A stretch of DNA of 48,444 bases from NCBI RefSeq assembly GCF_013141825.1, contig NZ_RZNH01000043.1, positions 1 through 48,444 on the forward strand, in the 5' to 3' direction. Of the stretch, positions 5,325 to 34,012 are shown one piece after another; positions within the stretch are counted from its first letter, which is position 1, and every line of letters begins with the position of its first letter. A program made the translations under genes and the position numbers. The notes under the pieces are model-generated. The model saw nothing but the letters and a program-made list of their open reading frames with translations. It was not told the origin of the DNA and made no database searches. The stretch is from Marinifilum caeruleilacunae. Its GTDB lineage: Bacteria; Bacteroidota; Bacteroidia; Bacteroidales; Marinifilaceae.

Positions 5325-6161
5325 TTAAGCCTTTTTGTAGGCTTCTATTGCTTTCTTTACAGATCCATGTTCAAGAAGTAATGATTTCGATGTTTCTTTA
5401 TCAAGTTTTAACTCATCCATGATCATTAATGTGCCTCGCTCTACCAATTTTTTGTTGGTAAGCTGCATGTTTACCATCTTGTTGCCTTTCACTCTTCCCA
5501 ACTTAATCATCAAACTGGTTGTAATCATATTCAGGATCATTTTTTGAGCAGTTCCCGCTTTTAGTCTTGTACTACCTGTTACAAATTCGGGTCCTACAAT
5601 GGCTTCAATTACAATCTCTGCCTCTTTCGATACCGGAGCATCTGGATTGCAGGTAATGCATGCAGTTAAAAGTCCATTTTCGCGTGCTTTTTTAACGCCT
5701 CCAATTACATAAGGAGTAGTTCCCGAAGCCGCAATTCCTAAAACTGAATCATTTTCATTGATATCGTAATCCTGTAATTCCTGCCATGCCTTTTCAGGAT
5801 CATCTTCGGCAGATTCAACAGCGCTTCTTAATGCTTTTTCTCCACCCGCTATCAATCCAATTACAATATTGGCAGGCACACCAAATGTAGGAGGCAATTC
5901 AGAGGCATCCAATACTCCTAATCTTCCACTAGTTCCTGCTCCCAGGTAAAACAATCTTCCTCCAGCCTTAATTCTGTCAATTAAACGACTAACAAATTTT
6001 TCTATTTCTGGAATTGCTTTGTTTACAGCCAAATGAATTTGTCCATCTTCCTGATTAATTCCATTCAATAGTTCGCATACCGACATCTTTTCCAGGTTGG
6101 AGAAATTTGAAGGTGCTTCTGTTATTTTGTTATCGGTTTTCTTGTTTGGTGTGTTATTCAT
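5325..6161 (-). CDS. murQ: N-acetylmuramic acid 6-phosphate etherase
   Basis: Removes the D-lactyl group from MurNAc-6-phosphate to give GlcNAc-6-phosphate, the entry of muramic acid into amino-sugar catabolism (cytosol). The 278 residues form a SIS domain: GAGTSGR (74-80), LDASELPPTFG with the likely catalytic Glu88, and the acidic ESAEDDPEKAW helix (116-125), which corresponds to the second active-site glutamate of MurQ. Slightly shorter than E. coli MurQ (about 298). It lies 10 bases downstream of the kinase gene, so the two are one operon: kinase first, then etherase, as in the Tannerella forsythia MurK/MurQ pathway. Confidence 0.96.
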   Translation of the reverse strand: MNNTPNKKTDNKITEAPSNFSNLEKMSVCELLNGINQEDGQIHLAVNKAIPEIEKFVSRLIDRIKAGGRLFYLGAGTSGRLGVLDASELPPTFGVPANIVIGLIAGGEKALRSAVESAEDDPEKAWQELQDYDINENDSVLGIAASGTTPYVIGGVKKARENGLLTACITCNPDAPVSKEAEIVIEAIVGPEFVTGSTRLKAGTAQKMILNMITTSLMIKLGRVKGNKMVNMQLTNKKLVERGTLMIMDELKLDKETSKSLLLEHGSVKKAIEAYKKA

Positions 6162-6171
6162 GATTCAAATT

Positions 6172-7002
6172 TTATTCTGCAATATGGAATTCAACCAATC
6201 CTTCAAGTGGACTTTTGATGATTTTTCCAGTTTGTAAGTTTAATTTCTCAGCCACTTTATTTAATTCATTCTTAAAATAGTATGCGATACTACCAATAAA
6301 ATGAATAGGAAGCTGTGAGTGATCATTGTATTGTTTGATGTTTCGCTCAAAGAATTTAGTGAACTCTTCCTGTAATAGGTTCGAAACATATGGATGCTCG
6401 ACGTTTTCAGAAAGAAAAACAGTAAACTGAGCAAGGAAACGACTTGGAGCTTCTTCTCGATATACCTTATTAATAATATAGCCGTATTCCAGGTCGTGTT
6501 TTGTATAAAAAGCTTTTGTGATATCTTCCGGAGCTACTCCTTTTAAAATATCAGCAATAAGTCTTTTACCCAGGACAGCACCACTTCCTTCATCTCCCAG
6601 GATATATCCCAACGGACGAACATTGTGAATGATATCTTTTCCATCATACAAGCAAGAGTTTGATCCTGTACCTATAATGCAGGCAATTCCTTTTTCTCTT
6701 CCACACACCGATCTTGCAGCAGCAAGTACATCGCTATGAATTTCACATGTGGCAGAAGGAAATACTTCCAGTAATGCATCTTTCACTTTCTGTTTGGTTT
6801 CAACAGTAGCGCATCCCGCTCCATAAAAATAGATTTGCTCAACGGAGTTGAAATTCTCCAGTGATCTTACATTATCAATAATTGAACTGATGTCCTGGTG
6901 AAAAGGATTTATTCCTAAAGTTTGTTGTTGCTTTAGGATTTTGCCCTCCTGCAATAGAACCCAATCGGTTTTTGTTGATCCGCTTTCGGCAATTAAAATC
7001 AT
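6172..7002 (-). CDS. amino-sugar kinase of the BadF/BadG type (MurK/NagK-like)
   Basis: Predicted ATP-dependent kinase for N-acetylmuramic acid and/or N-acetylglucosamine, of the ASKHA fold. Motifs: phosphate-1 loop ESGSTKTDW (6-14), catalytic Asp91 in HSDVLAAARS, phosphate-2 loop GTGSNS (111-116) and LGDEGSGAVLG (135-145). The 276-residue length fits short Bacteroidota members. First gene of the minus-strand operon with murQ, which supports MurNAc as a substrate; GlcNAc is the alternative or second substrate, as in MurK enzymes that accept both. Transcribed divergently from the nagB-PIG-L operon over a shared control region. Confidence 0.88.
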   Translation of the reverse strand: MILIAESGSTKTDWVLLQEGKILKQQQTLGINPFHQDISSIIDNVRSLENFNSVEQIYFYGAGCATVETKQKVKDALLEVFPSATCEIHSDVLAAARSVCGREKGIACIIGTGSNSCLYDGKDIIHNVRPLGYILGDEGSGAVLGKRLIADILKGVAPEDITKAFYTKHDLEYGYIINKVYREEAPSRFLAQFTVFLSENVEHPYVSNLLQEEFTKFFERNIKQYNDHSQLPIHFIGSIAYYFKNELNKVAEKLNLQTGKIIKSPLEGLVEFHIAE

Positions 7003-7274: not shown

Positions 7275-9257
7275 ATGGAAAATCAAATATTACAATTTAG
7301 AGAAGAGCTGGATGAAGCTAAGTTGTATTACCAACCATCGGATGAATTCGATAAAACGGTAAAAACAAGATATGAGAAAATGCCTGCTGATATTTTTGCT
7401 ACAGCTGAGAAGGGTGCAAAGTGGGTGGCTCATGAAATCGCAAACCTAATCAAAGACAAGGCAGAGCAAAATAGTCCTTGTGTGCTTGGCCTGGCTACTG
7501 GTGCAACACCATTGGGGGTATATGCAGAATTGGTGCGACTGCATAAAGAAGAAGGTCTATCGTTCAAAAATGTAATTACATTTAATTTGGATGAATATTA
7601 TCCAATGACAAATGAGAGCGCACAGAGCTATAACTACTATATGGACGATGTTCTTTTCAATCATATTGATATTCCTCGCAATCAGATTAATGTTCCGAAT
7701 GGAGAGGTGAGTAAAGAAGGAATTTTTAATTACTGTTCCGAATATGAAGCCAAAATCGATTCTTTTGGTGGACTTGATATGCAAATATTAGGAATTGGTA
7801 GGACAGGACATATTGGTTTTAACGAGCCGGGTTCACAGTTAGATTCGAAAACTCGTTTAATCATGCTCGATTCCTTAACCAGGCGTGATGCTGCAAAGGA
7901 TTTCAACGGTTTAAATAAAGTGCCAAAAGCTGCAATTACAATGGGAGTTGGCACCATCTTTAAAGCAAAGCGTGTGATTTTGATGGCATGGGGCGAAGGA
8001 AAGGCTCCTATTGTTAAGAAAGCATTGGAGGAAGGACAGAGCGATTCAGTTCCTGCAAGTTATTTGCAGCGCCATAATGATGTGCAGTTTGTATTGGATG
8101 TACCTGCGGCAGGAGAACTGACAAGAGTAAAAAAACCTTGGCTTGTTGGTAGTGTTGAGTGGGATCGATACTGGATTCGTAAAGCTGTGGTTTGGCTTTG
8201 TAATAAATTGGAGAAACCGGTTTTAAAACTCACCAACAGAGATTATAACGATAATGGCTTGAGTGAGCTGCTTGCCTGGTATGGATCGGCATATGAAGTA
8301 AACATCAAGGTATTTAACGATTTACAACATACCATTACCGGTTGGCCGGGAGGTAAACCAAATGCCGATGATTCAAATCGTCCGGAAAGAGCTGAGCCTG
8401 CTCAGAAAAAAGTCCTGGTATTTAGTCCTCACCCTGATGATGATGTAATATCGATGGGGGGAACACTAAAAAGATTGGTTGATCAGAGTCACGAAGTACA
8501 TGTTGCTTATCAAACTTCGGGAAATATCGCGGTAGCCGATGACGAAGCAATTCGTTATTTGTCTTTCGTAAAAAGTTTTGCGCAAACGCATGACACCAAC
8601 GAAGGAAACCTGCCAAGCGTGATTGAAGATATTCGTAAATTCTTATTGGAGAATAAAGCTCCTGGCGAAATGGATACGGTTGAAGTTCGTAGAATGAAAT
8701 CACTAATTCGCAGAGGAGAGGCAAAAGCTGCTTGTCGTTTTGTTGGTCTGCGTTCTAAGAACCTTCACTTTCTTGACCTTCCTTTTTATGAAACGGGTAA
8801 GGTAAAGAAGAATCCACTTGGAAAGGAAGATGTTCAAATCATTGTGAACTTATTAAGAAAGGTGAAGCCACAACAAATTTTTGCTGCTGGAGACTGGTCA
8901 GATCCACACGGTACACACCGAGTTTGTTGGGAAGGCATTTACCAGGCACTTCAGATTGTAAAAGATGAAAAATGGATGGAAGACTGCTATGTGTGGTTGT
9001 ACAGAGGTGCTTGGCAAGAGTGGGATTTGGATGAAATTCAAATGGCAGTGCCAATTAGCCCTGAAGAATTGCAACACAAAAGAAATGCAATTCTGCGTCA
9101 CCAATCGCAAATGGAAAGTGCTCCATATATGGGTAACGATTCAAGATTGTTCTGGCAAAGATCGGAAGCAAGAAACAGGGCGACCGCAAATTTATTTAAT
9201 AAATTAGGCTTGGCAGAATATGAAGCAATCGAAGCTTTTGTCAGGTTTATTGTTTAG
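7275..9257 (+). CDS. nagB: glucosamine-6-phosphate deaminase fused to a PIG-L deacetylase-like domain
   Basis: A 660-residue fusion. Residues about 30-290 are NagB (isomerase fold), converting glucosamine-6-P to fructose-6-P and ammonia: catalytic base Asp106 in LDEYYP and the GRTGHIGFNEPG loop (175-186) with His179 and Glu184. Residues about 380-640 are a LmbE/PIG-L zinc hydrolase: H386-P-D-D-D390 and a second histidine pair in DPHGTH (His545, His548). PIG-L enzymes remove N-acetyl groups from GlcNAc-type sugars, so the C-terminal half may supply deacetylated substrate to the N-terminal half; no nagA is seen in this window. The fusion is widespread in Bacteroidota, while its second activity is inferred. 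First gene of a 14-kb operon. Confidence 0.93.
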   Translation: MENQILQFREELDEAKLYYQPSDEFDKTVKTRYEKMPADIFATAEKGAKWVAHEIANLIKDKAEQNSPCVLGLATGATPLGVYAELVRLHKEEGLSFKNVITFNLDEYYPMTNESAQSYNYYMDDVLFNHIDIPRNQINVPNGEVSKEGIFNYCSEYEAKIDSFGGLDMQILGIGRTGHIGFNEPGSQLDSKTRLIMLDSLTRRDAAKDFNGLNKVPKAAITMGVGTIFKAKRVILMAWGEGKAPIVKKALEEGQSDSVPASYLQRHNDVQFVLDVPAAGELTRVKKPWLVGSVEWDRYWIRKAVVWLCNKLEKPVLKLTNRDYNDNGLSELLAWYGSAYEVNIKVFNDLQHTITGWPGGKPNADDSNRPERAEPAQKKVLVFSPHPDDDVISMGGTLKRLVDQSHEVHVAYQTSGNIAVADDEAIRYLSFVKSFAQTHDTNEGNLPSVIEDIRKFLLENKAPGEMDTVEVRRMKSLIRRGEAKAACRFVGLRSKNLHFLDLPFYETGKVKKNPLGKEDVQIIVNLLRKVKPQQIFAAGDWSDPHGTHRVCWEGIYQALQIVKDEKWMEDCYVWLYRGAWQEWDLDEIQMAVPISPEELQHKRNAILRHQSQMESAPYMGNDSRLFWQRSEARNRATANLFNKLGLAEYEAIEAFVRFIV

Positions 9258-9274
9258 ATTTATCATTACAATTT

Positions 9275-9298: not shown

Positions 9299-9338
9299 TG
9301 GTATATAATCAGATAAAATTGCATTGAATATTAGGAAT

Positions 9339-12300
9339 ATGAATTCTCTATCGAACACACTTTTAAAGTCGACTTTACTGGTCCTATTTTCTTTTTTATT
9401 GCTGAGCTATAGTGTTCAGGCGGCTGAAAAATCAAATCGCTTAAACAGGAAAGCCGAAAAGGCAGCGCTTGAATTTTTAAAACAAGCCTCTCAAGAGTTT
9501 GTGTATCGCTTTAAGCTGGATAGCCTTGACCTAAATGCAGATAAGAAGCAAATAGTGGTATATGTAAATTCAACTTTTTCATATGTGCCTTTCAGACCAA
9601 ACACTGTAAAGCAATATCAATCTGATTTAAAGGAAATTCTTGGGCGGAAATTCAGAAATTACGATGTGCGAATTGAGTGTATGGGGATGGAGATTGGTGA
9701 ATTGATTCCTAATTATTATAGAGATGATTCTTTCCCTTTGGCAAAAAATCGATTGTCGGTTGAAGGCGATGCAATAAAACCATTGGTAAGGAAGCCTGGA
9801 GATGAAAATTATCAGTTTGGATTAGAAAATAAGCACATTGCCTTGTGGCATTCGCATGGTTGGTACTACGAAAATACACTGGACCGTTGGGAATGGCAAA
9901 GGGCCAGGGTATATACTACAGTTGAGGACATGTGGACCATGGAATTTGTGGTTCCTTATATTGCGCCTATGCTCGAAAATGCAGGTGCAAACGTTTTATT
10001 CCCAAGAGAACGGGATGTTCAAAGCAATGAAGTAATTGTGGATGCTGATTGGTGTTCAATTCAGTCCGACTATCAGGAAACAGGAAATTGGGAAACCAAC
10101 ACACAAGCAGGATTTACGAATAAGTATCCTTTTTACATCGAAGGAGAAAATCCATTCGAAATGGGAAGTAGTAAACAGACTGAAGCAGTTTCGTCTGAAA
10201 CAGCTAGAGTGGAATATACGCCATTTATTCCCGAAAAAGGGGAATATGCTGTTTATGTATCTTATTCGGTGGATGATGATAATGTTAGCGATGCTCATTA
10301 TTCGGTTTATCATGCTGGTGGAAAAACGGATTTTCTTGTAAACCAGAGTATGGGAGGAAATACCTGGATTTACCTGGGGACCTTCCTGTTTGAGCACGGA
10401 AAAAATCCGACAAGGGGTAAAGTTCTGCTTACAAACGAAAGTAAGGAAGAGGGCAATTGGGTTTCGGCCGATGCTGTTCGTTTTGGCGGAGGAACCGGAA
10501 ATATTGCAAGAGGTACGATTGAAGAATTGGAGGAGTTGGCCAAAGAAAGAAACCAATTGGGTTTTGCGATGGATTCTTCAAAGTGGCAAAAATATACAAG
10601 TAATCGTCCGAGGTATCACGAAGCTGCCCGCTACTATTTGCAGTATGCAGGAATGCCCGATTCTATTGTGTATAGTATCAATAAAGATTATAAGGCAGAT
10701 TATAGCAATCGTGGAAAAGATGCTGCCAAGTTTCAAAAGCGTGAAAATGGGAAAGACGATTATAAGGATGATTACATGTCGCGTGGTGAATGGGTAGATT
10801 ATTTAATTGGTGCTCCCAATGGTCCTACAAAACATGTAAATGCAAAAGGACTGGGAATTCCTGTTGATATGGCATTGGCATTTCATACCGATGCCGGATT
10901 TACACCCAACGATTCCATTATTGGGACTTTGGCAATTTATAATACAACCAGGGATGGTAAGGATCGATTTGTAAATGGACAATCGAAATGGGCAAGTCGT
11001 GATTTAACGGACATTGTGCAAACGCAGGTTGTAGAAGATATTCGAAAACTCTTCGAGCCAAAATGGACAAGAAGAGGAATGTGGAACAAGCAATATTCCG
11101 AAGCATATCGACCTAAAGTGCCTACCATGTTGTCTGAAATGCTGTCGCATCACAATTTTGCAGACATGTACCAGGGAATGGATCCGAAATTTAAATTCCA
11201 CATTAGTCGTGCTTATTACAAAGGTGTGTTGAGATTCTTAGCTTCCCAGGAAGGAAAGGATTATGTGGTGCAGCCTTTGCCTGTCGATCATTTTAGAATT
11301 GATGAAAAACAGAATGGAATCAGACTGAGTTGGAAAGCGGTAGTTGATCCACTGGAAGAAAGTGCACTAGCTAAAAAATACAAAGTATACACCAGGTTGA
11401 ACAATGGCGGATTTGATAATGGCGTATTGGTAGACAAAGCAGAATTGATACTTGAAAACTTGAGTTCTGAAAATATCTACAGCTTTAAAATTACAGCCCT
11501 GAATGAAGGAGGTGAAAGTTTTCCTTCGGAGATTTTGTCCTATCGCAAATCCCAAAATGGAGAAAAACCTGTTTTAATTGTAAATGGTTTTGACAGAATT
11601 GCTTCTCCACATGGATTTGACGATGGCAGTTTTGCCGGCTTTAACAGTGCTGTTGATGAGGGAGTAGCTTACGTTAGAAATATTGCCTATGTTGGTGATC
11701 AGTACGATTTCGATAGAAAATCGCCTTGGTTGGACGATGATGCTTCGGGTCACGGTTCAAGTTATGCCGACCAGGAAGAAAAAATTGTTGCAGGAAATCG
11801 TTTTGATTACCCTTATGTGCATGGTGAAGCGATTCAAGCCGCAGGATACGGTTTTGTGTCGATGAGCGATGAGTCTTTTGAAAAAGGGAATTGGGAAGTT
11901 TCGGATTACGCAGCATTAGATCTGATTTTTGGTGAGGAGAAAACTACTCGAAGACTATACGGAAAAGAGAATAAAGATTTTACGATTTATACACCTGGAA
12001 TGGTAAAGGCCATCAGAAAATACATTCAATCGAAAGATGCAAAACTGATTCTTTCGGGAGCCTACCTGGGAACAGATGTTGTGGAGTGTGGTGATACTTT
12101 AATGAAAGATTTTACCGAAAAAGAACTTCACTTCCTGTTCAGAACCAATTATGCGAGTAAATCGGGTGCCGTTTCTCATCCGAATGAGGTAAGAGAAAAT
12201 TTTACTGGAAATTACCAGTTCGAAACAGGATATCATAAAGATATTTACAAAGTAGAAGCTCCTGATGCCATCGAACCTGTGGGTAAGAACGCAAAGGTGT

Positions 12301-12461
12301 TTATGAGATATACAAACAATACCAAAAGTGCTGGTGTTGTTTACGATGGAGATTACCAATCAATTATTTTAGGATTTCCTTTTGAAACGCTAAAAACAAA
12401 GGAAGATCGAAATGACTTGATGCGTAAAATCTTTCGATTTTTTAATGAAGAAGAAAAATAA
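9339..12461 (+). CDS. secreted N-acetylmuramoyl-L-alanine amidase with golvesin-like insert, Fn3 and C-terminal domain
   Basis: Cleaves the bond between MurNAc and the stem peptide (predicted). The frame can open at a TTG at 9324, but ATG 9339 is directly followed by a signal peptide (hydrophobic LLVLFSFLLLSYSVQA, cut near residue 28), so I chose it (1040 residues). Zinc ligands typical of Amidase_3 are seen in split form: His171 in WHSHGWYYE, Glu196 in TTVEDMW, His516 in AFHTDAG; a catalytic Glu600 lies in TMLSEMLSHHNF. Between the first and second halves (about 250-400) sits a beta-rich golvesin C-terminal/xanthan-lyase-like domain. Residues about 650-735 look like fibronectin III, and the rest like a Rossmann- or GATase-like domain of unknown use. 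Often named xanthan lyase-like in this phylum; the amidase residues and neighbours argue for peptidoglycan. Confidence 0.82.
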   Translation: MNSLSNTLLKSTLLVLFSFLLLSYSVQAAEKSNRLNRKAEKAALEFLKQASQEFVYRFKLDSLDLNADKKQIVVYVNSTFSYVPFRPNTVKQYQSDLKEILGRKFRNYDVRIECMGMEIGELIPNYYRDDSFPLAKNRLSVEGDAIKPLVRKPGDENYQFGLENKHIALWHSHGWYYENTLDRWEWQRARVYTTVEDMWTMEFVVPYIAPMLENAGANVLFPRERDVQSNEVIVDADWCSIQSDYQETGNWETNTQAGFTNKYPFYIEGENPFEMGSSKQTEAVSSETARVEYTPFIPEKGEYAVYVSYSVDDDNVSDAHYSVYHAGGKTDFLVNQSMGGNTWIYLGTFLFEHGKNPTRGKVLLTNESKEEGNWVSADAVRFGGGTGNIARGTIEELEELAKERNQLGFAMDSSKWQKYTSNRPRYHEAARYYLQYAGMPDSIVYSINKDYKADYSNRGKDAAKFQKRENGKDDYKDDYMSRGEWVDYLIGAPNGPTKHVNAKGLGIPVDMALAFHTDAGFTPNDSIIGTLAIYNTTRDGKDRFVNGQSKWASRDLTDIVQTQVVEDIRKLFEPKWTRRGMWNKQYSEAYRPKVPTMLSEMLSHHNFADMYQGMDPKFKFHISRAYYKGVLRFLASQEGKDYVVQPLPVDHFRIDEKQNGIRLSWKAVVDPLEESALAKKYKVYTRLNNGGFDNGVLVDKAELILENLSSENIYSFKITALNEGGESFPSEILSYRKSQNGEKPVLIVNGFDRIASPHGFDDGSFAGFNSAVDEGVAYVRNIAYVGDQYDFDRKSPWLDDDASGHGSSYADQEEKIVAGNRFDYPYVHGEAIQAAGYGFVSMSDESFEKGNWEVSDYAALDLIFGEEKTTRRLYGKENKDFTIYTPGMVKAIRKYIQSKDAKLILSGAYLGTDVVECGDTLMKDFTEKELHFLFRTNYASKSGAVSHPNEVRENFTGNYQFETGYHKDIYKVEAPDAIEPVGKNAKVFMRYTNNTKSAGVVYDGDYQSIILGFPFETLKTKEDRNDLMRKIFRFFNEEEK

Positions 12462-22362: not shown

Positions 22363-22521
22363 AAGTATAGGTTTAGTTTTGAGCCCTAAAAATAGAAAAA
22401 TATACACTCGATCTGATGAAATAATTCATAAGATTATGATGGGATGAAAGGCATGACTCTTTCGGGGGAATAGGAGGGCAAAAACTTTTTACGCCGAAGG
22501 AGCAATAAAATTATAGTGATC

Positions 22522-25444: not shown

Positions 25445-26908
25445 ATGAAAAGAATAGTATTAGTAAGCATATTACTCATCATGGCAGTTGGGGTATTTGC
25501 GGAAAAGAAATCGCCCAAAAGGGAAATGCGTGCGGTTTGGATTGCAACGGTTGATAATATCGACTGGCCATCAAAACCGGGTTTAAGTGTTGAGGAGCAA
25601 AAGAAGGAGTTGATTACGCATTTGGATCAGCACAAAAAAAATGGAATGAATACGGTAATTTTCCAGGTTCGTCCTGCTACCGATGCATTCTACAAATCGG
25701 CTTACGAGCCTTGGTCGCAGTGGTTAACAGGTGAACAGGGCAAAGCTCCTGATCCAATCTACGATCCATTGCAATTTGCAGTTGAAGAGTGCCACAAAAG
25801 AGCCATGGAACTGCATGCATGGATGAATCCTTACCGAGCTGTGTTTTTGTACAAGAATGCCAAGACCGATCCCAATCATATTAGCAATACAAGACCAGAA
25901 TTATTTCTGACCTACGGAAAGCACAAATATTTTAATCCCGGATTGCCGGAAACAAGAGATTATGTGTCGAAAATTGTAGGGGATGTTGTGCGCAGGTACG
26001 ATATTGATGCCATCCATTTCGACGATTATTTCTATCCATATAAAATAGAGGGTGAAGCTTTCCCCGATTCTGAAAGCTTTGAGAAACATGGGGGAAAGTT
26101 TTATCCAAATCAGGTTGACGATTGGAGAAGGGAAAATGTAAACCTGGTGATCAAGCAAATTAATGATACCATAAAATCGATTAAGCCCTGGATGCCTTTC
26201 GGGATTTCACCATTCGGAGTGTGGAGAAATAAGAGTATGGACAAAAAAGGATCCAGAACTCAGGCCGGTCAAACCAATTACGACGATTTGTATGCTGATG
26301 TTTTATTGTGGTTGAAGAAAGATTGGATTGATTATGTAGCTCCACAAATTTATTGGCACAGGGGTAAAAAAGTAGCCAACTATAAAGTTATTGCAAAGTG
26401 GTGGAACAAGAATTCCTATGGTAAACCATGTTACATTGGACAAGGTGCCTACCGATTGAATCCCGAATCGAGCATTAAAGCATGGCATAGTGCCGATGAA
26501 ATTGTTCAGCAAATTAAACTAAACCGTAGGTTAAAAGCTGTTGATGGAAGCATGTTCTTTTCTGCGAAAAATTTTGTTGAGAACAGGCTTGGGATTAACG
26601 AAGCACTTTCACTAGAAGTGTATAAAGTTCCGGCTTTGCACATTCAGAATGCGCTATTTAAAGGAATGGTTCCTGCCAGTCCTGAATTAAAAAAGAAAGG
26701 TTCCAAACTTGAATGGACAAAGCAGGAAGCTGCTACTTACTATGTAGTCTATAAAAAAGAGAAAAAATCACACAAGAAAGTATTTTGTATTACAAGTTTC
26801 TGTGAATTGGATCTAAATGCGAAAGAAAATGGTGGTGAATATTCTGTGGCTGCAGTAAACAGAGGTCATGTAGAGAGTGTGGAAAGTAACAGGATAAAGA
26901 TAAAGTAG
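25445..26908 (+). CDS. GHL10/DUF187 glycosidase, DigH-like
   Basis: A 487-residue secreted protein with a short signal peptide (IVLVSILLIMAVGVFA). Residues about 25-390 form a glycosyl-hydrolase-like TIM barrel of the GHL10 (DUF187) family: REMRAVWIATVDNIDWPSKPG, NTVIFQVRPATDAFYKSAYEPWSQWLTG, ELHAWMNPYR, and DIDAIHFDDYFYPY, whose Asp residues are active-site candidates. The C-terminus (about 410-487) is an Fn3-like domain. E. coli DigH of this group hydrolyses denuded peptidoglycan glycans, so this enzyme likely makes glycan fragments for NamZ and AmpG. Begins one base after the transglutaminase stop. Confidence 0.9.
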   Translation: MKRIVLVSILLIMAVGVFAEKKSPKREMRAVWIATVDNIDWPSKPGLSVEEQKKELITHLDQHKKNGMNTVIFQVRPATDAFYKSAYEPWSQWLTGEQGKAPDPIYDPLQFAVEECHKRAMELHAWMNPYRAVFLYKNAKTDPNHISNTRPELFLTYGKHKYFNPGLPETRDYVSKIVGDVVRRYDIDAIHFDDYFYPYKIEGEAFPDSESFEKHGGKFYPNQVDDWRRENVNLVIKQINDTIKSIKPWMPFGISPFGVWRNKSMDKKGSRTQAGQTNYDDLYADVLLWLKKDWIDYVAPQIYWHRGKKVANYKVIAKWWNKNSYGKPCYIGQGAYRLNPESSIKAWHSADEIVQQIKLNRRLKAVDGSMFFSAKNFVENRLGINEALSLEVYKVPALHIQNALFKGMVPASPELKKKGSKLEWTKQEAATYYVVYKKEKKSHKKVFCITSFCELDLNAKENGGEYSVAAVNRGHVESVESNRIKIK

Positions 26909-27016: not shown

Positions 27017-27024
27017 GGATCATG

Positions 27025-27042: not shown

Positions 27043-27058
27043 AGAGAAGAGAATAAAA

Positions 27059-28234
27059 ATGAAATATACTTATTATATACTGTTGATTTTTATTGCATTT
27101 GCTTGTAGCAATGATAAGAATGTATTGCAGAAAGCAGAGCAGATATCACAGAAAGTGGGTAATGATTTTGCGCCAGATAGTAGAGAGGCAATTTATACTA
27201 CAAATTTTACTGTAGCTACTAATGGTAATCTGGTGGTTAGTGGAGAAACATCTTTGCCGAAAGCTAAGTTAGCGTTGTTTTCAAATTTGGAAGGATTAAA
27301 AATTCATTTGGTAGATAGTTTGGTTGTACTTCCAGCAAAAAAAATGGGTGATAAGGTTTGGGGATTGATAAATTTAAGTGTTGTAAACCTTAGGTCTCAT
27401 CCAAAGCATTCGGCAGAGCTTGTTTCGCAAGCTATCATGGGAACTCCAGTTAAAGTTTTAAATCAAAAAGGATCCTGGTACCAGGTGCAAACGCCAGACA
27501 AATACATTGCCTGGGTCGATCAGGCAGCAGTAAATCTTCGCAACAAGACCGAAATGGATCTTTGGAGAAATTCAAAACGTATTGTTTTTCTTCCGGATTT
27601 TAAGATTGCCAGGGGCGAAGATGGAAAACAAACTGTTACCGATTTGGTGGCAGGATCGATTTTACAAGTCGAGAAGGAAGAGAAAACTTTTTATAAGCTG
27701 ATATTACCTGATTTGAGAAAGGTTAAAGTGGAGAAATCTTTTTGTAAGGATTTTGACCTGTGGAAATCGACTCAAATTGAAGATGCTGCAATTTTAACCG
27801 CTACCGCAAGAGAGTTTATGGGACGACCATATTTATGGGGCGGAACATCATCAAAGGGTGTTGATTGTAGTGGTTTTGTGAAGTCGGTTTATTTTATGAA
27901 TGGAATTATACTAGCGCGTGATGCTTCATTGCAGTTTCTTCATGGAGACACCATTTCTCCTGAACAAGGGTTTACTAAGTTAGTAGAAGGAGATTTGGTG
28001 TTTTTCGGAAGAAAAGCAAGTGAAAACAAAACTCAGAAAGTAACACACGTTGGAATGTATATAAAGGATGGCGAGTTTATTCATTCTTCAGGTCGGGTAA
28101 AACTAAATAGTTTCGACCCAAAAGCAGAAAACTATAGCGATTACAGAACTGTAAGTTGGTTAGGTGGCCGCAGAGTACTAACCCGTATTGGGGAAGAAGG
28201 AATGATTAAAGTTTCTGAACATCCTTGGTATTAA
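27059..28234 (+). CDS. NlpC/P60 lipoprotein with SH3b domain, gamma-D-glutamyl-diamino acid endopeptidase-like
   Basis: A 391-residue lipoprotein (lipobox IAFAC, Cys16). Residues about 100-165 are a bacterial SH3 domain (LSVVNLRSHPKHSAELVSQ, then WYQVQTPDKYIAWVDQ), and a second, weaker one may follow. The C-terminal NlpC/P60 domain has Cys270 in GVDCSGF, His330 in THVGMY and His342 in FIHSSG. The architecture resembles YkfC, which cuts the gamma-D-Glu to diaminopimelate bond of free stem peptides and releases L-Ala-D-Glu. The next gene encodes an epimerase for that dipeptide, which supports this specificity. Confidence 0.9.
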   Translation: MKYTYYILLIFIAFACSNDKNVLQKAEQISQKVGNDFAPDSREAIYTTNFTVATNGNLVVSGETSLPKAKLALFSNLEGLKIHLVDSLVVLPAKKMGDKVWGLINLSVVNLRSHPKHSAELVSQAIMGTPVKVLNQKGSWYQVQTPDKYIAWVDQAAVNLRNKTEMDLWRNSKRIVFLPDFKIARGEDGKQTVTDLVAGSILQVEKEEKTFYKLILPDLRKVKVEKSFCKDFDLWKSTQIEDAAILTATAREFMGRPYLWGGTSSKGVDCSGFVKSVYFMNGIILARDASLQFLHGDTISPEQGFTKLVEGDLVFFGRKASENKTQKVTHVGMYIKDGEFIHSSGRVKLNSFDPKAENYSDYRTVSWLGGRRVLTRIGEEGMIKVSEHPWY

Positions 28235-28247
28235 GATTTAAGTAAGA

Positions 28248-29390
28248 ATGACAATAGATAGAAGAAAATTCCTGGGGAATAGTGGTTTGTTGGCGGGAGC
28301 AGCTTGTTTGCTTCCTCTGATTAGTGGTTGTGAAGGCCAAAAAGGAAAACCGGAATCAACCTATACCGGATCTGGTCTAAAATTGAGTTTCGAACCTTAC
28401 GATCTGCAATTAAAGCATGTCTTTACAATTGCATCTTTTTCGAGAACCACTACACCGGTAATGTTGGTGAAGATTGAGTGGGGAGGATTTGTTGGTTATG
28501 GAGAAGCTTCCATGCCGCCATACCTTGGCGAGTCTCATAAAACGGCTGCTAAATTTTTAAGTTCCCTGAAATTGGATCAGTTTACCGACCCTTTTAGATT
28601 GAACGAAATTTTGTCATATGTAGATGGTGTTGCCGAAGGAAATTGTGCGGCCAAAGCATCGGTTGATATTGCTTTACACGATTTGATTGGAAAGATTGTG
28701 GAGAAGCCTTGGTACCAGATATGGGGATACAACCAGGAAGATACACCGGTAACCACTTTTACAATTGGAATTGATAAGCCAGAAGTTGTAAAGGAAAAGG
28801 TGATTGAAGCATCGCCTTATAAAATGTTGAAGGTGAAAATTGGTCGTGGAAGCGATGAAGAAATGATCAATACCATTAGAAAGGTTACTGATATTCCTTT
28901 GTGTGTAGATGTAAACCAGGGGTGGAAGGACAAGCAGGAAGCACTGGATAAAATTCACTGGTTAAAAGAACAGGGAGTTGTGTTTGTTGAGCAACCGATG
29001 GACAAGTACGATTTAGATACAATGGCCTGGTTAACTCAGCATAGTCCGCTACCAACAATTGCCGATGAAGGAATTCAACGACTAGCTGATGTTCCGAAGC
29101 TAAAGGGAGCATATTCAGGAATCAATATCAAACTAATGAAATGTACTGGTTTGCGCGAAGCACATAAAATGCTGAATGTTGCCAGGGCTTTAGATATGAA
29201 AGTCATGATTGGCTGTATGACAGAAACTTCTTGTGGAGTGAGTGCAGCTTCTCAATTATCGCCTATGGTCGATTGGGCCGATTTGGATGGAAACTTGTTA
29301 ATTTCTAACGATCCATATAAAGGAGTAACAGTTCAGGATGGTAAGGTATTGCTCCCAAGTCGTCCTGGAATAGGAATAATTAAATTGTAA
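28248..29390 (+). CDS. L-Ala-D/L-Glu (dipeptide) epimerase with Tat-type lipoprotein signal
   Basis: A 380-residue member of the enolase superfamily. Catalytic residues: Lys195 and Lys197 in LKVKIG, metal ligands Asp221 (VDVNQGW), Glu248 (VEQP) and Asp273 (IADEG), and Lys295 in INIKLMK. It would turn L-Ala-D-Glu from peptidoglycan into L-Ala-L-Glu, which common peptidases can split. Unlike the cytosolic E. coli YcjG, the N-terminus reads DRRKFLGNSGLLAGAACLL followed by LISGC, a twin-arginine motif plus a lipobox (Cys28), so it should be folded in the cytosol and then exported as a lipoprotein. It lies 13 bases after the NlpC/P60 gene and 34 before susC. Confidence 0.92.
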   Translation: MTIDRRKFLGNSGLLAGAACLLPLISGCEGQKGKPESTYTGSGLKLSFEPYDLQLKHVFTIASFSRTTTPVMLVKIEWGGFVGYGEASMPPYLGESHKTAAKFLSSLKLDQFTDPFRLNEILSYVDGVAEGNCAAKASVDIALHDLIGKIVEKPWYQIWGYNQEDTPVTTFTIGIDKPEVVKEKVIEASPYKMLKVKIGRGSDEEMINTIRKVTDIPLCVDVNQGWKDKQEALDKIHWLKEQGVVFVEQPMDKYDLDTMAWLTQHSPLPTIADEGIQRLADVPKLKGAYSGINIKLMKCTGLREAHKMLNVARALDMKVMIGCMTETSCGVSAASQLSPMVDWADLDGNLLISNDPYKGVTVQDGKVLLPSRPGIGIIKL

Positions 29391-29424
29391 CTAAAGATAA
29401 ATTTGCTAATCTAAATTTAACACT

Positions 29425-32400
29425 ATGAGAAAAATTGCATGCTTAGCGTTAATTATGCTACTTGGCTGGCAAGTATCCTGGGCACAGGATGCGTTGGTTA
29501 AAGGTGTAGTTACCGGTGCAGAAGACGGGCTTACTATCCCGGGTGTTTCGGTTGTAGAAAAAGGTACAACCAACGGAACAACTACTGATTTTGATGGTAA
29601 GTATCAAATCAATGTTGGAACTGATGCGGTATTGGTATTCAGTTATATTGGAATGAAAACGTTTGAGGTAGCAGTAGGTACCCAAACTGAAATTAATGTA
29701 AAACTAGAAGCCGACAATGTAGCAATGGATGAAGTTGTAGTTGTAGGTTATGGTGTTCAGAAAAAGAGTGATGTAACTGGTGCAGTTGCTTCTGTTGATT
29801 TTGAAGATTTGGAGTCACAACCAATTAACTCTGTAAATGATGCAATCAAAGGTAGAATTGCAGGGGTTCAGGTGATGTCGAACAGTGGATCTCCAGGGGG
29901 ATCAATTTCTATTCGTGTTCGCGGTATTGGTTCGGTTAATAATTCAGACCCTTTGTATGTAGTTGATGGTGTGCCCACATCAGATATTAACTTTTTAAAT
30001 CCTAACGATATTGCATCTGTTGAGGTGTTGAAAGATGCTTCTTCATCTGCAATTTATGGATCCAGAGGTGCGAATGGAGTAGTTCTTGTTACTACTAAAA
30101 GTGGAAAAACAAATACATCTCCAAGAGTCGAAGTTGATGCTTATTATGGCGTTAAGGAGGTATTGAACAATTGGGAAACTACATCGGGTTCAGAATGGTA
30201 TGCTATTCAGGAAGAAATGAATAAAACCAGAACATCACCTATTGATTTATCGCAGGTTGACCCTGCCGTAAATACGGATTGGTTTGATGAAATTACTCGC
30301 TCCGCAACCGTTCAGGATTATAATGTAAGCGTTTCAGGAGGTAGTGATAAGCTAACATATATTATGGGTGCTGGGTTCTATGATGAAGAAGGGACAGTTT
30401 ATGGTTCCGACTATGAAAGAATCAATGCACGTTTAAAAACAGATTATCAGGCAAAGGATTATTTAAAGATAGGAACCAATATAAATATTCAAAGTAATAA
30501 ACGTCATTCAATTACGGAAGGAAGTTATCATACTGGTACCATAAATACTGCGATCAAATTAGAGCCAGTTGTTCCTGTTTGGAAAAATGAAGCAGAAGGA
30601 ATATATGATTATTCAAAGTTTACAGATTACCCAAATCCGGTTGCTCAAATTGAATATGATAATTATAGAACTGAACAGTTTAGATTGTTAGGTAATGTAT
30701 ATGCTGAGCTTGAAATTATTAAAGATTTAAAATTTAAAACAAGCTATGGTTTAAATAGAACCGTTACTGATACTTATAACTTTACGCCAATTTATTACGT
30801 GAATAATAATCAGCGTAATGATATTAATAATGTGTACAGAGGATATAGTAAATCAGTATATCAAACCTGGGAAAATACATTATCATATCATAAAACCATT
30901 GAGAAGCATGATATTGTAGCACTTGCTGGTTTTACCAAAGAAAAGAGCCGTTCTGAATGGATGTCGGGAAGTAAGAATAATATCCCAAATGAAGATGAAG
31001 CTCTTTGGTATTTAGATTCAGGTGCTGATGGTGATCTGGCTTCAGGTTCTGCTTCAGAATATACCCTAATGTCTTATTTAGGTCGTGTAAATTATGCATA
31101 TGATAATAAATATCTGTTGACTGCAAGTTTCCGTGCAGATGGTTCTTCAAGATTTTCAGATGGCAATCGTTGGGGATATTTCCCATCGGTAGCAGTAGGA
31201 TGGAAAATGTCAGAAGAAGATTTCCTAAAAGATATTGAATGGTTGTCCATATTGAAACTTCGTGGTGGTTGGGGACAAATTGGTAACCAAAATATTGGTA
31301 CATACCCATATCAAACTACCATGGATGGAAATTCACAGTATCGATATATTTTTGGAGTAAACGAGGATGTTTATCAGGGTTATGTGGTGAATGCCATGAA
31401 AGATGAAAATATTCAATGGGAAACTGTTGAGTCTTTGAATATTGGTTTTGATGCTGCTTTGTTTGATGCTAGGTTGGAAGTTTCATTTGACTGGTTTGAT
31501 AAAGACACAAAAGATATGTTATTAAGTATTCCAATTCCTTATTATTATGGATACGAAAGTGGTCCTACAGTAAATGTTGGGGAAGCGAATAATAAAGGTG
31601 TTGAAATGTCTTTTAACTGGAGAGATCAAATAGGATCTGATTTTAGCTATAGCATTGGTTTGAATGTATCAACCTATAAAAATGAAATGGTTAGCCTTGG
31701 ATCAGGAGAGCCAATTACAGGTGGATCATATTATTTGGGTAGCGCAACACGCACCGAAGAAGGAGAAGCGATTGGTTACTTCTATGGTTATAAAACAGAT
31801 GGAGTTTTTCAAAATCAGGCAGAAATTGATGCTCATGCTATTCAACAAGGTGGTGATAACTCAGGATTGCAACCTGGAGATATGAAATTTGTTGATGTAA
31901 ATGGCGATGGTACAATTAATGGTGATGATAGAACTAAAATTGGCGATCCAAATCCTGATTTTACATATGGGATAAACCTTGGGGCTCAATATAAGAATTG
32001 GGAAGTCAGCGCATTCTTCCAAGGATCAAAAGGAAACGATGTATTTAACGCCATGAAAACACATTTGTACAAGTTTGATGAAACGAATAAACATAAAGAT
32101 ATGTTAAATTCGTGGACGCCAACGAATACCAATACAAATATGCCAAGATTATCTGGTTATGATGTAAATGATACCAATCGTACTTCTGATAGATTTGTTG
32201 AAGATGGTTCATACATGCGTTTGAAAAACTTAATGGTAGCATATAATTTCCCAAAACGATTGTTAGATAAAGTGAAACTTACTTCAGCTAAATTATATTT
32301 CTCGGGTCAAAACTTATGGACGATCACAGATTATTCTGGTGCGGACCCTGAAATTGGACAAGTTTCTTCTACCAATTATTTGAGTCGTGGTGTAGATATT

Positions 32401-32454
32401 GGTACTTATCCACAGGCTAAAACTTATGTAGTAGGTGTTAAACTAGGCTTCTAG
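29425..32454 (+). CDS. SusC-like TonB-dependent outer-membrane transporter
   Basis: A 1009-residue outer-membrane receptor. Signal peptide MRKIACLALIMLLGWQVSWAQ, then a carboxypeptidase-D regulatory-like domain (about 24-100: VKGVVTGAEDGLTIPGVSVVEKGT, DGKYQINV, FSYIGMKT), a SusC-type plug (DEVVVVGYGVQKKSDVTGAV to NGVVLVTTKSGK) and a 22-strand barrel ending TYVVGVKLGF. It pairs with the SusD gene 19 bases downstream. Neighbours that act on stem peptides suggest that this pair takes up muropeptides or di-/tripeptides, not polysaccharide. The relatively short length (1009) is within the range of peptide-type SusC proteins, but the cargo is inferred from context. Confidence 0.95.
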   Translation: MRKIACLALIMLLGWQVSWAQDALVKGVVTGAEDGLTIPGVSVVEKGTTNGTTTDFDGKYQINVGTDAVLVFSYIGMKTFEVAVGTQTEINVKLEADNVAMDEVVVVGYGVQKKSDVTGAVASVDFEDLESQPINSVNDAIKGRIAGVQVMSNSGSPGGSISIRVRGIGSVNNSDPLYVVDGVPTSDINFLNPNDIASVEVLKDASSSAIYGSRGANGVVLVTTKSGKTNTSPRVEVDAYYGVKEVLNNWETTSGSEWYAIQEEMNKTRTSPIDLSQVDPAVNTDWFDEITRSATVQDYNVSVSGGSDKLTYIMGAGFYDEEGTVYGSDYERINARLKTDYQAKDYLKIGTNINIQSNKRHSITEGSYHTGTINTAIKLEPVVPVWKNEAEGIYDYSKFTDYPNPVAQIEYDNYRTEQFRLLGNVYAELEIIKDLKFKTSYGLNRTVTDTYNFTPIYYVNNNQRNDINNVYRGYSKSVYQTWENTLSYHKTIEKHDIVALAGFTKEKSRSEWMSGSKNNIPNEDEALWYLDSGADGDLASGSASEYTLMSYLGRVNYAYDNKYLLTASFRADGSSRFSDGNRWGYFPSVAVGWKMSEEDFLKDIEWLSILKLRGGWGQIGNQNIGTYPYQTTMDGNSQYRYIFGVNEDVYQGYVVNAMKDENIQWETVESLNIGFDAALFDARLEVSFDWFDKDTKDMLLSIPIPYYYGYESGPTVNVGEANNKGVEMSFNWRDQIGSDFSYSIGLNVSTYKNEMVSLGSGEPITGGSYYLGSATRTEEGEAIGYFYGYKTDGVFQNQAEIDAHAIQQGGDNSGLQPGDMKFVDVNGDGTINGDDRTKIGDPNPDFTYGINLGAQYKNWEVSAFFQGSKGNDVFNAMKTHLYKFDETNKHKDMLNSWTPTNTNTNMPRLSGYDVNDTNRTSDRFVEDGSYMRLKNLMVAYNFPKRLLDKVKLTSAKLYFSGQNLWTITDYSGADPEIGQVSSTNYLSRGVDIGTYPQAKTYVVGVKLGF

Positions 32455-32473
32455 TCTGCAAAATTTGAATAGA

Positions 32474-34012
32474 ATGAAAGTATATATAAAATCAATAAGT
32501 AAAGTACTATTGGTATTGGCTTCGGGATTGTTGCTTACCAATTGTAGTGATGATTTTCTTGATCAGGATAAATTAGGAGAGGAAACTTCTGATGTATATT
32601 TCAACAGTCAGGAAAAAGCGGTGGCATCTTTAACTGCAGCCTACTCAGATTTGAAAGACTACCGTTTTGGCTGGTTTTTCTGGGCATTTGGTGAAACTTT
32701 AAGCGATAATGCTGTTTATAGCGGAAGCGATGGTGATAACGCAGGTTTTGAACCATTAAAAACTTTTAATGGAACGGCTGACGCTTTCCAGGTTCGACTT
32801 AAGTGGCAATTGTGTTATAGAGGGATAAATAAGTCAAGTCAGACAATTGAAGGAACTGAAGCGATGGATGATGAATTGTTCGAATCAGGAATGAAGGCGA
32901 GAATTATTGCTGAAGCGAAGGTTTTGAGAGCTTTTTATCATTTCGAATTGGTTAGAGCTTATGGTAGAATCCCTGTATTAGATCACCTAATTAGAACAGC
33001 CGATGAGAAAATTGGTCAGTCAGAAATTGACGATGTTTATACATTTATTATTTCTGAACTTGAAGCTGCAGAACCTAATCTTCCTGTAAAAAGTTCTTAT
33101 GCTGCAAGTGATCTGGGTAGAATCACTAAAGGATTTGCACAAGGATTGTTGGCTAAGGTTAATCTATATGCTGAGAATTATGATGCCGCAAAAACTTGGG
33201 CTAAAAAAGTAATGGATTCAAATGAATATGAATTAGATCCTGATTTTGCTCATATATTCTCATTTGATGGAGAAAATGGTATTGAATCTGTTTTTGAAAT
33301 TGACTTTATTGAATCTGATACTGAAACATCAGCATTTAGAAATAATGGAAACTTTCAGACTTTGTTTCAATTACCAAGAAATATCACATATGGTTATGGT
33401 ATTAATCAGCCAACTCAAGAATTAGCTGATGCTTTTGATGCGGCAGGTGATATAATAAGAAAAGAAGCAACTCTATTAACAACAGATGAGGTATATGCAA
33501 ATGAGATTCCGCAAGAAGTTTGGGATTGGTATAATGTGCAAACAGACATGACGGTCGCTAATGACTCATTGGATCAGTGGAAAGCTACTTTAACTTTCAA
33601 CAGAACGGGTTACTATCAGGAGAAGATTTATGTTGCTCCGGAAAATCGTGCTGCTTCAATTCGAAACAATGCAAATAACACTAGAGTAATGCGTTATGCA
33701 GAAGTCTTGTTGATGTATGCTGAAGCTTGTGCCCAAACTTCTGATGATGAAAATGCAAGAGTTGCATTAAACGAAGTTCGCAGTCGCGCAGGCTTATCAG
33801 ATGTAACTGCTTCGGGTTCTGCTTTAATTGATGCAATTTATGCTGAACGCCGTTTAGAATTGGCTGGTGAGAATGATCGTTACCATGACCTTGTACGTAC
33901 AAATCGTGCTAACATTCTTCCTTATTGGACAGAAGCTAAAAAATACTGGCCAGTACCACAGGCCGAAATTGATAACACCACTGGCGAAATCATTCAAAAC
34001 CCTGGTTATTAA
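32474..34012 (+). CDS. SusD/RagB-like surface lipoprotein
   Basis: The ligand-binding partner of the SusC protein. An upstream TTG at 32465 is in frame, but ATG 32474 (MKVYIKSISKVLLVLASG) is the better start, giving 512 residues. The lipobox LLTNC places the lipid on Cys24, followed by acidic SDDFLDQDK, a surface-export-like signal. The body has the SusD features: an N-terminal segment with TPR helices (YRGINKSSQTIEG, AEAKVLRAFYHFELVRAYGRIPV), and the C-terminal MRYAEVLLMYAEACAQ and LNEVRSRAGL, ending with PVPQAEIDNT and NPGY. Last gene of the operon, with its own terminator. Confidence 0.95.
   Translation: MKVYIKSISKVLLVLASGLLLTNCSDDFLDQDKLGEETSDVYFNSQEKAVASLTAAYSDLKDYRFGWFFWAFGETLSDNAVYSGSDGDNAGFEPLKTFNGTADAFQVRLKWQLCYRGINKSSQTIEGTEAMDDELFESGMKARIIAEAKVLRAFYHFELVRAYGRIPVLDHLIRTADEKIGQSEIDDVYTFIISELEAAEPNLPVKSSYAASDLGRITKGFAQGLLAKVNLYAENYDAAKTWAKKVMDSNEYELDPDFAHIFSFDGENGIESVFEIDFIESDTETSAFRNNGNFQTLFQLPRNITYGYGINQPTQELADAFDAAGDIIRKEATLLTTDEVYANEIPQEVWDWYNVQTDMTVANDSLDQWKATLTFNRTGYYQEKIYVAPENRAASIRNNANNTRVMRYAEVLLMYAEACAQTSDDENARVALNEVRSRAGLSDVTASGSALIDAIYAERRLELAGENDRYHDLVRTNRANILPYWTEAKKYWPVPQAEIDNTTGEIIQNPGY

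Follow-up and report, generated by a model that had tools for sequence, protein, structure and literature searches.

Peptidoglycan is an abundant bacterial polymer. In Escherichia coli, recycling of the cell wall combines AmpG-type import with the etherase MurQ, which releases D-lactate; AnmK is the kinase for 1,6-anhydro products. In the murein-peptide genes ykf/dpp of Bacillus, a dipeptide epimerase, by textbook account a cytoplasmic enzyme, lies beside a YkfC-like NlpC/P60 endopeptidase. In Tannerella forsythia, the region Tanf_08345-08385 comprises, in the sections of PMC5388701 devoted to it, genes for a xanthan lyase and two glycosyltransferases followed by lytB, ampG, ybbC, murT, murK and murQ; the same sections place murT, murK and murQ on one transcript with the preceding genes and name GppX as the activator. 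The glycoside hydrolase families GH23, GH24, GH25 and GH73 are described, in an excerpt of PMC6499787, as strongly under-represented in polysaccharide utilization loci, yet present in several of them. Here, we analyzed a window of 48,444 nucleotides (contig NZ_RZNH01000043.1, positions 1 to 48,444) from the 5.27-Mb genome of Marinifilum caeruleilacunae, in which the stretch 5325-34012 links genes for the catabolism of N-acetylmuramic acid (MurNAc), wall-cutting enzymes and a SusC-SusD (SusCD) pair. This locus is probably a nutritional peptidoglycan salvage system with swappable, recruited SusCD importers for cell-wall fragments. Among the matches listed in the open-licence PubMed Central literature, we found no article that deals with SusCD import of peptidoglycan.

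Organization and conservation of the locus

The stretch contains exactly 20 genes (Table 1), position 5325 being the stop of murQ and position 34012 that of the SusD gene. An initial annotation of this DNA had proposed three linked units, and the 20 genes indeed form three compact runs. Unit 1, on the minus strand, encodes MurQ and a MurK-type kinase, whereas unit 2, on the plus strand (7275-21374), consists of ten genes with intergenic gaps of 3-117 bp, including the genes for a family-2 glycosyltransferase-like protein (GT2), DUF4922, GNAT, GDSL, SpoIID and NagX/MurT-family proteins, which the initial annotation had left unnamed. Two minus-strand genes, for a protein of 323 amino acids (aa) and NamZ, separate unit 2 from unit 3, in which the genes for a transglutaminase-like protein, GHL10, NlpC/P60, the epimerase, SusC and SusD follow each other on the plus strand (24010-34012) with gaps of 1-150 bp. 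SusC starts 34 bp after the epimerase, and 10 bp separate SusC from SusD. Co-transcription would be expected within the runs, but because the genes lie on both strands, a single transcript of the Tannerella type, with a GppX-type hybrid two-component regulator, is impossible.

Judging from the DUF4922 loci that we kept, the closest named relatives are Marinifilum species, followed by Labilibaculum and Ancylomarina. Among 34 genomes of the family (G000-G033), 11 gave a strong epimerase match (E < 1e-100), and G002, in addition to these, has two matches that are cut by contig ends. Gene order is collinear, as far as the fetched stretches extend, in nine relatives (G001, G003, G004, G010, G012, G013, G016, G024 and G026). 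The transglutaminase-like gene is absent or a remnant in G012, G013, G016, G024 and G026, and the GNAT gene is absent in G012; in G002, the locus is present but split into pieces.

Three types of SusCD pair behind a constant enzyme pair

In all 10 full copies from relatives with the collinear locus, NlpC/P60 and the epimerase closely precede SusCD, and SusC starts 43-55 bp past the epimerase match (10/11 when G008 is included). The collinear loci differ in the SusCD pair that fills this position. Type A, with SusC 81-85% and SusD 82-88% identical to those of the window, is found in G001 (SusD, 88%) and G016 (82%); type B (SusC, 46-47%) in G002, G003, G004 and the second copy of G024; and type C (SusC, 28-29%) in G002, G010, G012, G013, G026 and the first copy of G024, a genome with two tandem NlpC-epimerase-SusCD modules. 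The type C SusD proteins that were scanned (G012, G026) belong to PF12771, whereas the scanned type A and type B proteins match PF07980 best.

Type C pairs are accompanied by additional genes. In G010, G012, G013, G024 and G026, the interval from GHL10 to NlpC also holds genes for AnmK, a sodium:solute symporter and a beta-lactamase-family protein; a single copy of each was domain-scanned and the rest were assigned by position and likeness, with AnmK confirmed in all five. Behind SusD, G012 encodes a NAGPA protein (L076:11893-13128), with look-alikes in G010, G013 and G024, and a NAGPA phosphodiester glycosidase also follows the type C SusCD of L232. This enzyme could act on the linkage between teichoic acid and MurNAc. 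Of the 11 locus-bearing genomes of the family, all 6 that have a type C pair encode AnmK and none of the other 5 does (6/6 versus 0/5; Fisher p 0.002, which ignores shared ancestry). Types A and B alone occur without AnmK in the Marinifilum family. The contrast holds inside two genera (G002 versus G000, G001, G003 and G004; G026 versus G016), the AnmK of G002 being on another contig. Outside the family, G058 (Prolixibacter) has a type A pair and AnmK elsewhere, and G048 and G061 have none.

The initial annotation had guessed the link between SusCD and peptidoglycan from adjacency in one genome; comparison of neighbourhoods across relatives and other families has strengthened it. In other families, pairs of types A and B are again neighbours of peptidoglycan genes, and pairs resembling type C lie next to the epimerase. 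Two Prolixibacter genomes each have a compact salvage locus (L200, L201) that contains their closest genome-wide match to the window SusC (63% identity; the next, 41%; SusD, 63-64%) together with GT2, GHL10, NagX, NagB-PIG-L, MurK, MurQ, SusD, the 1045-aa protein, NlpC, the epimerase and the transglutaminase-like gene. In Paludibacter (L198), a SusCD pair (48/42%) adjoins the epimerase and NlpC, and in G048 another (46/40%) lies close to the epimerase and GHL10. G283 (L190) carries a type B pair (73/77%) with the epimerase, NlpC, the transglutaminase-like gene and NamZ, and behind it a type C-like pair. It also encodes an oxidase with flavin adenine dinucleotide and iron-sulfur domains, which we interpret as being of the D-lactate dehydrogenase type; such an enzyme would fit the D-lactate released by MurQ.

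In a SusC tree of 47 rows, 44 of them different (both SusCs of G283 and that of G048 were entered twice), the window protein falls into a 100/100 clade with G016, G001 and Prolixibacter. L198 and L199 join this type A clade at 100/99, and G048 at 83/94. Type B forms a 100/100 group that includes G283 and L191, and type C is a separate group, in which the family sequences (100/100) are joined by L232 and the second SusC of G283 (98/95), by L220 (99/97) and, less surely, by L223 and L224 (88/86). Most members of the three clades are salvage-linked, and another SusC of the window's genome (L208) is placed elsewhere. Across 20 SusC neighbourhoods, other genes of the locus were found in 4 (L190, L198, L200 and L201) and in none of the remaining 16, among which L189 (7 kb) and L191 are short contigs and L199 is a member of the type A clade. 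L198-L201 came from genomes chosen for a SusC near the core, and the Fisher value of 0.001 is not relied on; the collinear loci and the tree carry the argument instead.

Within type A, the window SusC clusters with G016 rather than with G001 of the same genus (support 95/90). SusC and SusD of the window are 85% and 82% identical to those of G016, as against 66% for NlpC and 68% for the metallophosphatase encoded downstream, the epimerase being at 83%. This pattern suggests that the pair may have been exchanged laterally.

The sugar-arm core in Bacteroidia

Window proteins were searched with tblastn against 80 named DUF4922 loci, the best of at least 509 confirmed stretches. We found GT2 in 68, SpoIID and AmpG in 53 each, MurK in 37, MurQ in 31, NamZ in 26, the 1045-aa protein in 23, NagX in 19, NagB-PIG-L in 18, DUF1460 in 15, GHL10 in 12, SusC in 8 and the epimerase in 1; these counts are lower bounds, as flanks were 10 kb and contig ends truncate many of the loci. 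In Bacteroides fragilis (L142), the order is 1045-aa protein, GT2, DUF4922, SpoIID, AmpG, NamZ, NagX-family protein, MurK and MurQ. Thus, the sugar-arm core recurs in Bacteroidia. GT2 and DUF4922, frequent partners here, also occur on Ignavibacteriales contigs, where the fetched stretches hold no other core genes.

In a drawn sample of 393 genomes of the order, 70 encode this epimerase. Of 71 loci from outside the family, 40 have NlpC at a distance of up to 9.5 kb from the epimerase, 12 the transglutaminase-like gene, 9 SusC, 5 NamZ and 5 MurQ, whereas 18 random stretches from ten of these genomes held SusC in 3, SusD in 1 and no salvage genes.

Predicted functions of the encoded proteins

Assignments to the families of MurQ, NagB-PIG-L, AmpG, GHL10, DUF1460/AmiA-like proteins and SusC (Table 1), as well as NamZ (NamZ_N, 2e-85), are far above chance. 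MurQ and NagB-PIG-L pass the curated NCBIfam cut-offs, and the AmpG and NagX matches, which lie under theirs, extend over nearly the full model length. Motif counts given below are over distinct homologue sequences, and export signals were scored by a simple N-terminal hydrophobicity test that included near-duplicate sequences.

Table 1. Genes of the locus (5325-34012) and the adjacent candidate regulator gene
Predicted product	Position	Strand	Support
GntR/FCD regulator (NanR/LldR-like), outside the locus	4526..5242	+	PF00392, PF07729
MurQ, MurNAc-6-phosphate etherase	5325..6161	-	NF003915, 367 bits; TIGR00274 above cut-off
MurK-type MurNAc kinase	6172..7002	-	Solved relatives 8oqw, 8ow9 ("putative novel MurNAc kinase"), 8oqk, 8ow7
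NagB-PIG-L fusion; candidate GlcNAc-6-P deacetylase and GlcN-6-P deaminase	7275..9257	+	NF002557, 1056 bits
Exported Amidase_3-like protein with golvesin and fn3 domains, 1045 aa; counterpart of Tannerella "xanthan lyase"	9324..12461	+	Golvesin_C
Family-2 glycosyltransferase-like (GT2), without export signal	12483..13937	+	PF00535
DUF1460 (AmiA-like) NlpC/P60-type amidase, lipoprotein (lipobox)	14031..14915	+	PF07313, 2e-55
DUF4922, GalT/Ap4A-phosphorylase-like fold, without export signal	14949..15935	+	PF16269
Double GNAT acetyltransferase	15986..16903	+	PF00583, two stretches
SpoIID/LytB-domain protein without signal peptide	17021..18343	+	TIGR02669, 171 bits
AmpG-family muropeptide permease	18440..19729	+	TIGR00901, 8e-53, 179.5 bits (curated cut-off 350)
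GDSL/SGNH hydrolase, without export signal	19733..20260	+	PF13472, 1e-27
NagX/MurT family membrane protein	20265..21374	+	NF046061, 158 bits (cut-off 480)
323-aa protein, secreted (hydrophobic N-terminus), without family	21436..22407	-	No convincing family at E up to 1
NamZ exo-beta-N-acetylmuramidase	22622..23896	-	PF07075, PF20732; solved relative 4k05, 523 bits
Transglutaminase-like lipoprotein	24010..25443	+	PF01841
GHL10 glycoside hydrolase, exported (N-terminal hydrophobic core)	25445..26908	+	PF02638, 1e-80
NlpC/P60 endopeptidase with SH3 domain, lipoprotein	27059..28234	+	PF00877
Dipeptide epimerase, N-terminal Arg-Arg and lipobox	28248..29390	+	Solved relative 3iji/3ijl/3ijq, 495 bits
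SusC TonB-dependent importer, type A	29425..32454	+	TIGR04056, 7e-292
SusD lipoprotein, type A	32465..34012	+	PF07980, PF14322

At the catabolic end, the DASE motif of MurQ is present in 30/31 homologues. For the MurK-type kinase, the uncharacterised chains 1zbs and 1zxo rank ahead of the MurNAc kinase structures, and the window protein has Arg-Pro-Leu at the site where 1zbs has Ser-Pro-Leu. According to the part of PMC10465942 on the lactyl pocket, the T. forsythia MurK has Ser-Pro-Leu there, and its paralogue K1058 has Arg-Ala and lacks the Glu/His of other homologues; mapped by motif, the Arg-Pro-Leu of the window kinase would correspond to this pocket. The HPDD and PHxTH motifs of NagB-PIG-L are present in 17/17 homologues. 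A search of the window's genome for NagA (TIGR00221), the deacetylase of N-acetylglucosamine-6-phosphate (GlcNAc-6-P), gave only partial matches of at most 26 bits and none of full length; near-full-length NagA was found in 2 of the 14 genomes searched (G026 and G058). In a genome without full-length NagA, the PIG-L half is a natural candidate for this deacetylation, and the fusion is likely a non-orthologous replacement of NagA. No paper on a NagB/PIG-L fusion was found by title or abstract in our literature search. The NagX/MurT protein retains its histidine motif in 22/22 homologues, and its homologue in B. fragilis lies between NamZ and MurK. The kinship of NagX and MurT is noted, and NagX is argued to be a transmembrane acetyltransferase, in the portion of PMC9007349 that treats them; the window protein may be either a MurNAc transporter or an acetyltransferase. 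MurB is present in the genome, so that the cell should be able to make its own MurNAc and no auxotrophy is expected, and AnmK was not found in it. Elsewhere, the genome encodes a GH3 protein with a KHFPGHG motif and an export-like N-terminus.

Among the wall-cutting enzymes, an Amidase_3 match was obtained for 17/17 homologues of the 1045-aa protein (best 4.9e-5) and at 0.0025 for the window protein itself (18.3 bits against a cut-off of 27); His178, Glu201, His521 and Glu605 are invariant. Its structural model is weak (mean predicted local distance difference test (pLDDT) 68.8), and the 50 fold matches shown are led by golvesin and fn3 domains and include no amidase. Solved relatives of the DUF1460 protein are 2p1g, 4h4j, 4q5k and 4q68, and those of the NlpC/P60 protein are 3pvq/4r0k, 3npf and 3h41; the respective motifs are DCTT (19/20) and DCSG (16/16). 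NamZ has DIQDxG (25/28), and the epimerase KxK (21/21) and NIKL (19/21). The hydrophobic N-terminal core is found in NamZ (33/33), DUF1460 (25/25), the transglutaminase-like protein (7/7), NlpC (14/15), the 1045-aa protein (28/30) and GHL10 (14/17), with a mixed result for the epimerase (13/20). Throughout the collinear loci, however, the epimerase N-terminus is lipobox-like with Arg-Arg, implying that the enzyme may work outside the cytoplasm. A search for solved relatives of the transglutaminase-like protein gave none, and this protein and SusCD are placed in salvage by context only.

In contrast to these proteins, the hydrophobic core is absent from SpoIID (59/61), DUF4922 (80/81), GT2 (74/75) and GNAT (15/15), and we therefore discarded the possibility that SpoIID is exported. 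SpoIID has the motifs S[SA]E[MI] (53/56) and CxxxHC (56/56), the latter pattern having been drawn up from the window protein. The DUF4922 model (pLDDT 92) has Apa2 as the best Foldseek match (9e-11; template modelling score 0.51-0.55), followed by GalT (1e-5); together with the HxHxQ motif (75/76 homologues), this predicted fold places the protein in the GalT/Ap4A phosphorylase branch of the HIT superfamily. SpoIID lies near AmpG in many loci of Bacteroidia. A wall-enzyme domain of this kind, predicted to be cytosolic and accompanied by the nucleotidyltransferase-like DUF4922 protein and GT2, is kept from Marinifilum to Bacteroides and may be the most original part of the locus. The GDSL hydrolase is possibly a 6-O-acetyl-MurNAc esterase. 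We did not retain the 323-aa protein as a regulator or member of the locus: it has no convincing family and a hydrophobic N-terminus, and its gene is missing from all 20 contig stretches of relatives searched. Near its spot, G010 has a histidine kinase-like gene (judged by eye) and G016 a gene for a ThrE-type exporter.

Candidate regulator and flanking genes

The initial annotation had also credited the locus with an apparent regulator, which did not hold: the only regulator-like gene nearby, of the GntR/FCD type (Table 1), lies outside it. The best NCBIfam relatives of this gene, NanR and LldR, are both under cut-off, and its position is kept in G001, G003, G004, G010 and G016. No regulator of the hybrid two-component system (HTCS), SusR or extracytoplasmic function (ECF) sigma/anti-sigma type was found among the 20 locus proteins, and the locus encodes no hybrid histidine kinase; no search for a more distant regulator was made. 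Upstream, the GntR/FCD gene is preceded by a gene (2733-4205) for an M20 dipeptidase, which scores above the cut-off of NF006053, and the two (2733-5242) adjoin murQ also in G001, G003, G004 and G016. Both may belong to the salvage system. Downstream of SusCD, the interval 34257-36556 encodes an exported metallophosphatase and a secreted 364-aa protein without known family, which trail the SusCD region in 9/9 collinear relatives irrespective of SusCD type. Scans of the window returned zero Rfam families and no tRNAs, and the genome gave ten matches to GH92, a family unrelated to the locus.

A model for peptidoglycan salvage

On the basis of these assignments, the exported hydrolases would dismantle the wall at the surface and in the periplasm. 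Outside the cytoplasm, the DUF1460 and Amidase_3-like amidases would detach the peptide from MurNAc, GHL10 and NamZ would cleave the stripped glycan, and the NlpC/P60 enzyme would cleave behind D-Glu in the stem peptide. Cell-wall fragments, the presumed SusD ligand, would cross the outer membrane through the type A SusCD pair, and AmpG and the MurT/NagX protein would carry sugars and muropeptides across the inner membrane. In the cytosol, MurK and MurQ are predicted to convert MurNAc to GlcNAc-6-P and D-lactate, and NagB-PIG-L to deacetylate and deaminate GlcNAc-6-P to fructose-6-phosphate, a route that would explain the lack of a full-length NagA match. The M20 dipeptidase could finish the dipeptide.

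More tentatively, NlpC/P60-epimerase-SusC-SusD may be a modular uptake cassette in which the enzymes are constant and each of the three importer clades is tuned to a class of fragments; NagB-PIG-L would replace NagA, and cytosolic SpoIID, the GalT-like protein and the glycosyltransferase would form an undescribed muropeptide branch. Because type C comes with AnmK and often with a beta-lactamase-like hydrolase, a sodium symporter and NAGPA, we propose as part of this conjecture that it imports 1,6-anhydro or teichoic-acid-bearing fragments.

Alternative explanations

Several observations weigh against a salvage system with its own importer. The nearest solved SusC and SusD proteins come from other SusCD systems and lend no support to a cell-wall ligand, and the 20-kb stretch around L199, a SusCD pair of clade A, contains none of the genes of this locus. 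A strong epimerase match is wholly absent from 22 of the 34 family genomes, and G008 has an epimerase of 55% identity without a collinear locus or a SusC found nearby. SpoIID without an export signal fits wall degradation poorly. T. forsythia, in the passage of PMC7670621 concerned, uses sacculi as a MurNAc source, and the operon text of PMC5388701 names no SusCD. Finally, although the initial annotation assigned nearly all genes to one process, and the peptidoglycan theme stands on domain families, nearest solved relatives and synteny, 5/20 genes (GT2, DUF4922, GNAT, GDSL and the 323-aa protein) have no assignable role.

SusCD could then be a neighbour with another job, such as a general glycan or oligopeptide importer, inserted between the epimerase and the metallophosphatase of what is otherwise a salvage locus. 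SusC is common in these genomes, the closest solved proteins belong to other systems, and order-wide SusC is no commoner within 9.5 kb of the epimerase (9/71) than in random stretches (3/18), so that we rejected a general association of SusCD with the epimerase; directly downstream on the same strand (at most 1.2 kb), it occurs in only 4/71 loci (L220, L223, L224 and L232). These counts indicate that SusCD recruitment is confined to certain lineages and that NlpC-epimerase is the stable pair. Against an unrelated neighbour, three separate SusC clades fill the same slot and accompany salvage genes in several families, the orthologous SusCD of Prolixibacter is differently placed in the salvage locus, beside murQ, and the 15 SusC neighbourhoods below 46% identity contain zero other locus genes, albeit partly on short contigs (L189, 7 kb). 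We therefore regard an unrelated SusCD neighbour as unlikely. It is also improbable, in our view, that the locus recycles the cell's own wall during growth, with SusCD merely recapturing shed fragments: AmpG, MurK/MurQ and DUF1460 are recycling-type functions and MurB would allow MurNAc synthesis, but the TonB-dependent outer-membrane importer, the secreted hydrolases and the catabolic end (MurQ, NagB) point to food use, and AnmK was not found in the genome.

Alternatively, units 1 and 2 (MurNAc catabolism) and unit 3 (peptide handling) might be two separate systems brought side by side in certain lineages, which we consider doubtful. NlpC-epimerase pairs mostly occur without the core within 9.5 kb (DUF4922, SpoIID and AmpG in 2/71 epimerase loci), and conversely the epimerase accompanies a single named core locus, although the 10-kb flanks are too short and would miss the window's own epimerase. 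Against independence, joined loci with differing internal order are found in the Marinifilum group, Prolixibacter, L236, L239 and L158, and G283 joins NamZ to unit 3. If the reading as a salvage system with recruited importers is right, cell walls are a food polymer handled like other glycans, and loci of this kind have perhaps been overlooked since their enzymes fall outside the four classical peptidoglycan-cutting families. The locus also supplies named genes in cultured marine genera for studying how dead bacterial walls serve Bacteroidota as food, and the importer swap behind a fixed enzyme pair represents a natural experiment on SusCD specificity.

Comparison with known systems

The initial annotation considered the locus more complete than the textbook pathway. 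This is justified in comparison with E. coli and Bacillus but overstated for Bacteroidota, since the T. forsythia operon, as presented in PMC5388701, matches the sugar arm by gene names. Linked LytB/SpoIID, AmpG, NamZ, MurT-family, MurK and MurQ genes are present in the window by family and annotation, and 8 of its 20 locus genes have counterparts in the region of the T. forsythia ampG-namZ(ybbC)-murTKQ operon described there ("xanthan lyase", glycosyltransferase, LytB/SpoIID, AmpG, YbbC (NamZ), MurT, MurK and MurQ), by annotation rather than by sequence comparison. Unlike that operon, the window locus is split into runs on both strands, and it additionally has NagB-PIG-L, DUF1460, GNAT and GDSL genes as well as the entire peptide arm, SusCD included.

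AmpG-type import and MurQ are shared with E. coli recycling, whereas AnmK and full-length NagA were not found in the window's genome. As in Bacillus ykf/dpp, the epimerase lies beside a YkfC-like NlpC/P60 endopeptidase (solved relatives 3iji and 3pvq). However, the locus has SusCD in place of a Dpp-type ATP-binding cassette importer, no inner-membrane peptide transporter was found among its 20 proteins, and its epimerase has an export-like N-terminus. With the polysaccharide utilization loci of Bacteroidota, the window shares adjacent SusC and SusD, exported hydrolases (GHL10, NamZ) and downstream catabolism, but its predicted substrate is peptidoglycan, its GHL10, NamZ, NlpC/P60 and epimerase enzymes are outside GH23, GH24, GH25 and GH73, and it lacks an HTCS-, SusR- or ECF-type regulator among the locus proteins. 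Thus, the sugar arm is a known system, whereas unit 3 is the new part of the locus, and the joining of the sugar arm with an exchangeable SusCD cassette is new.

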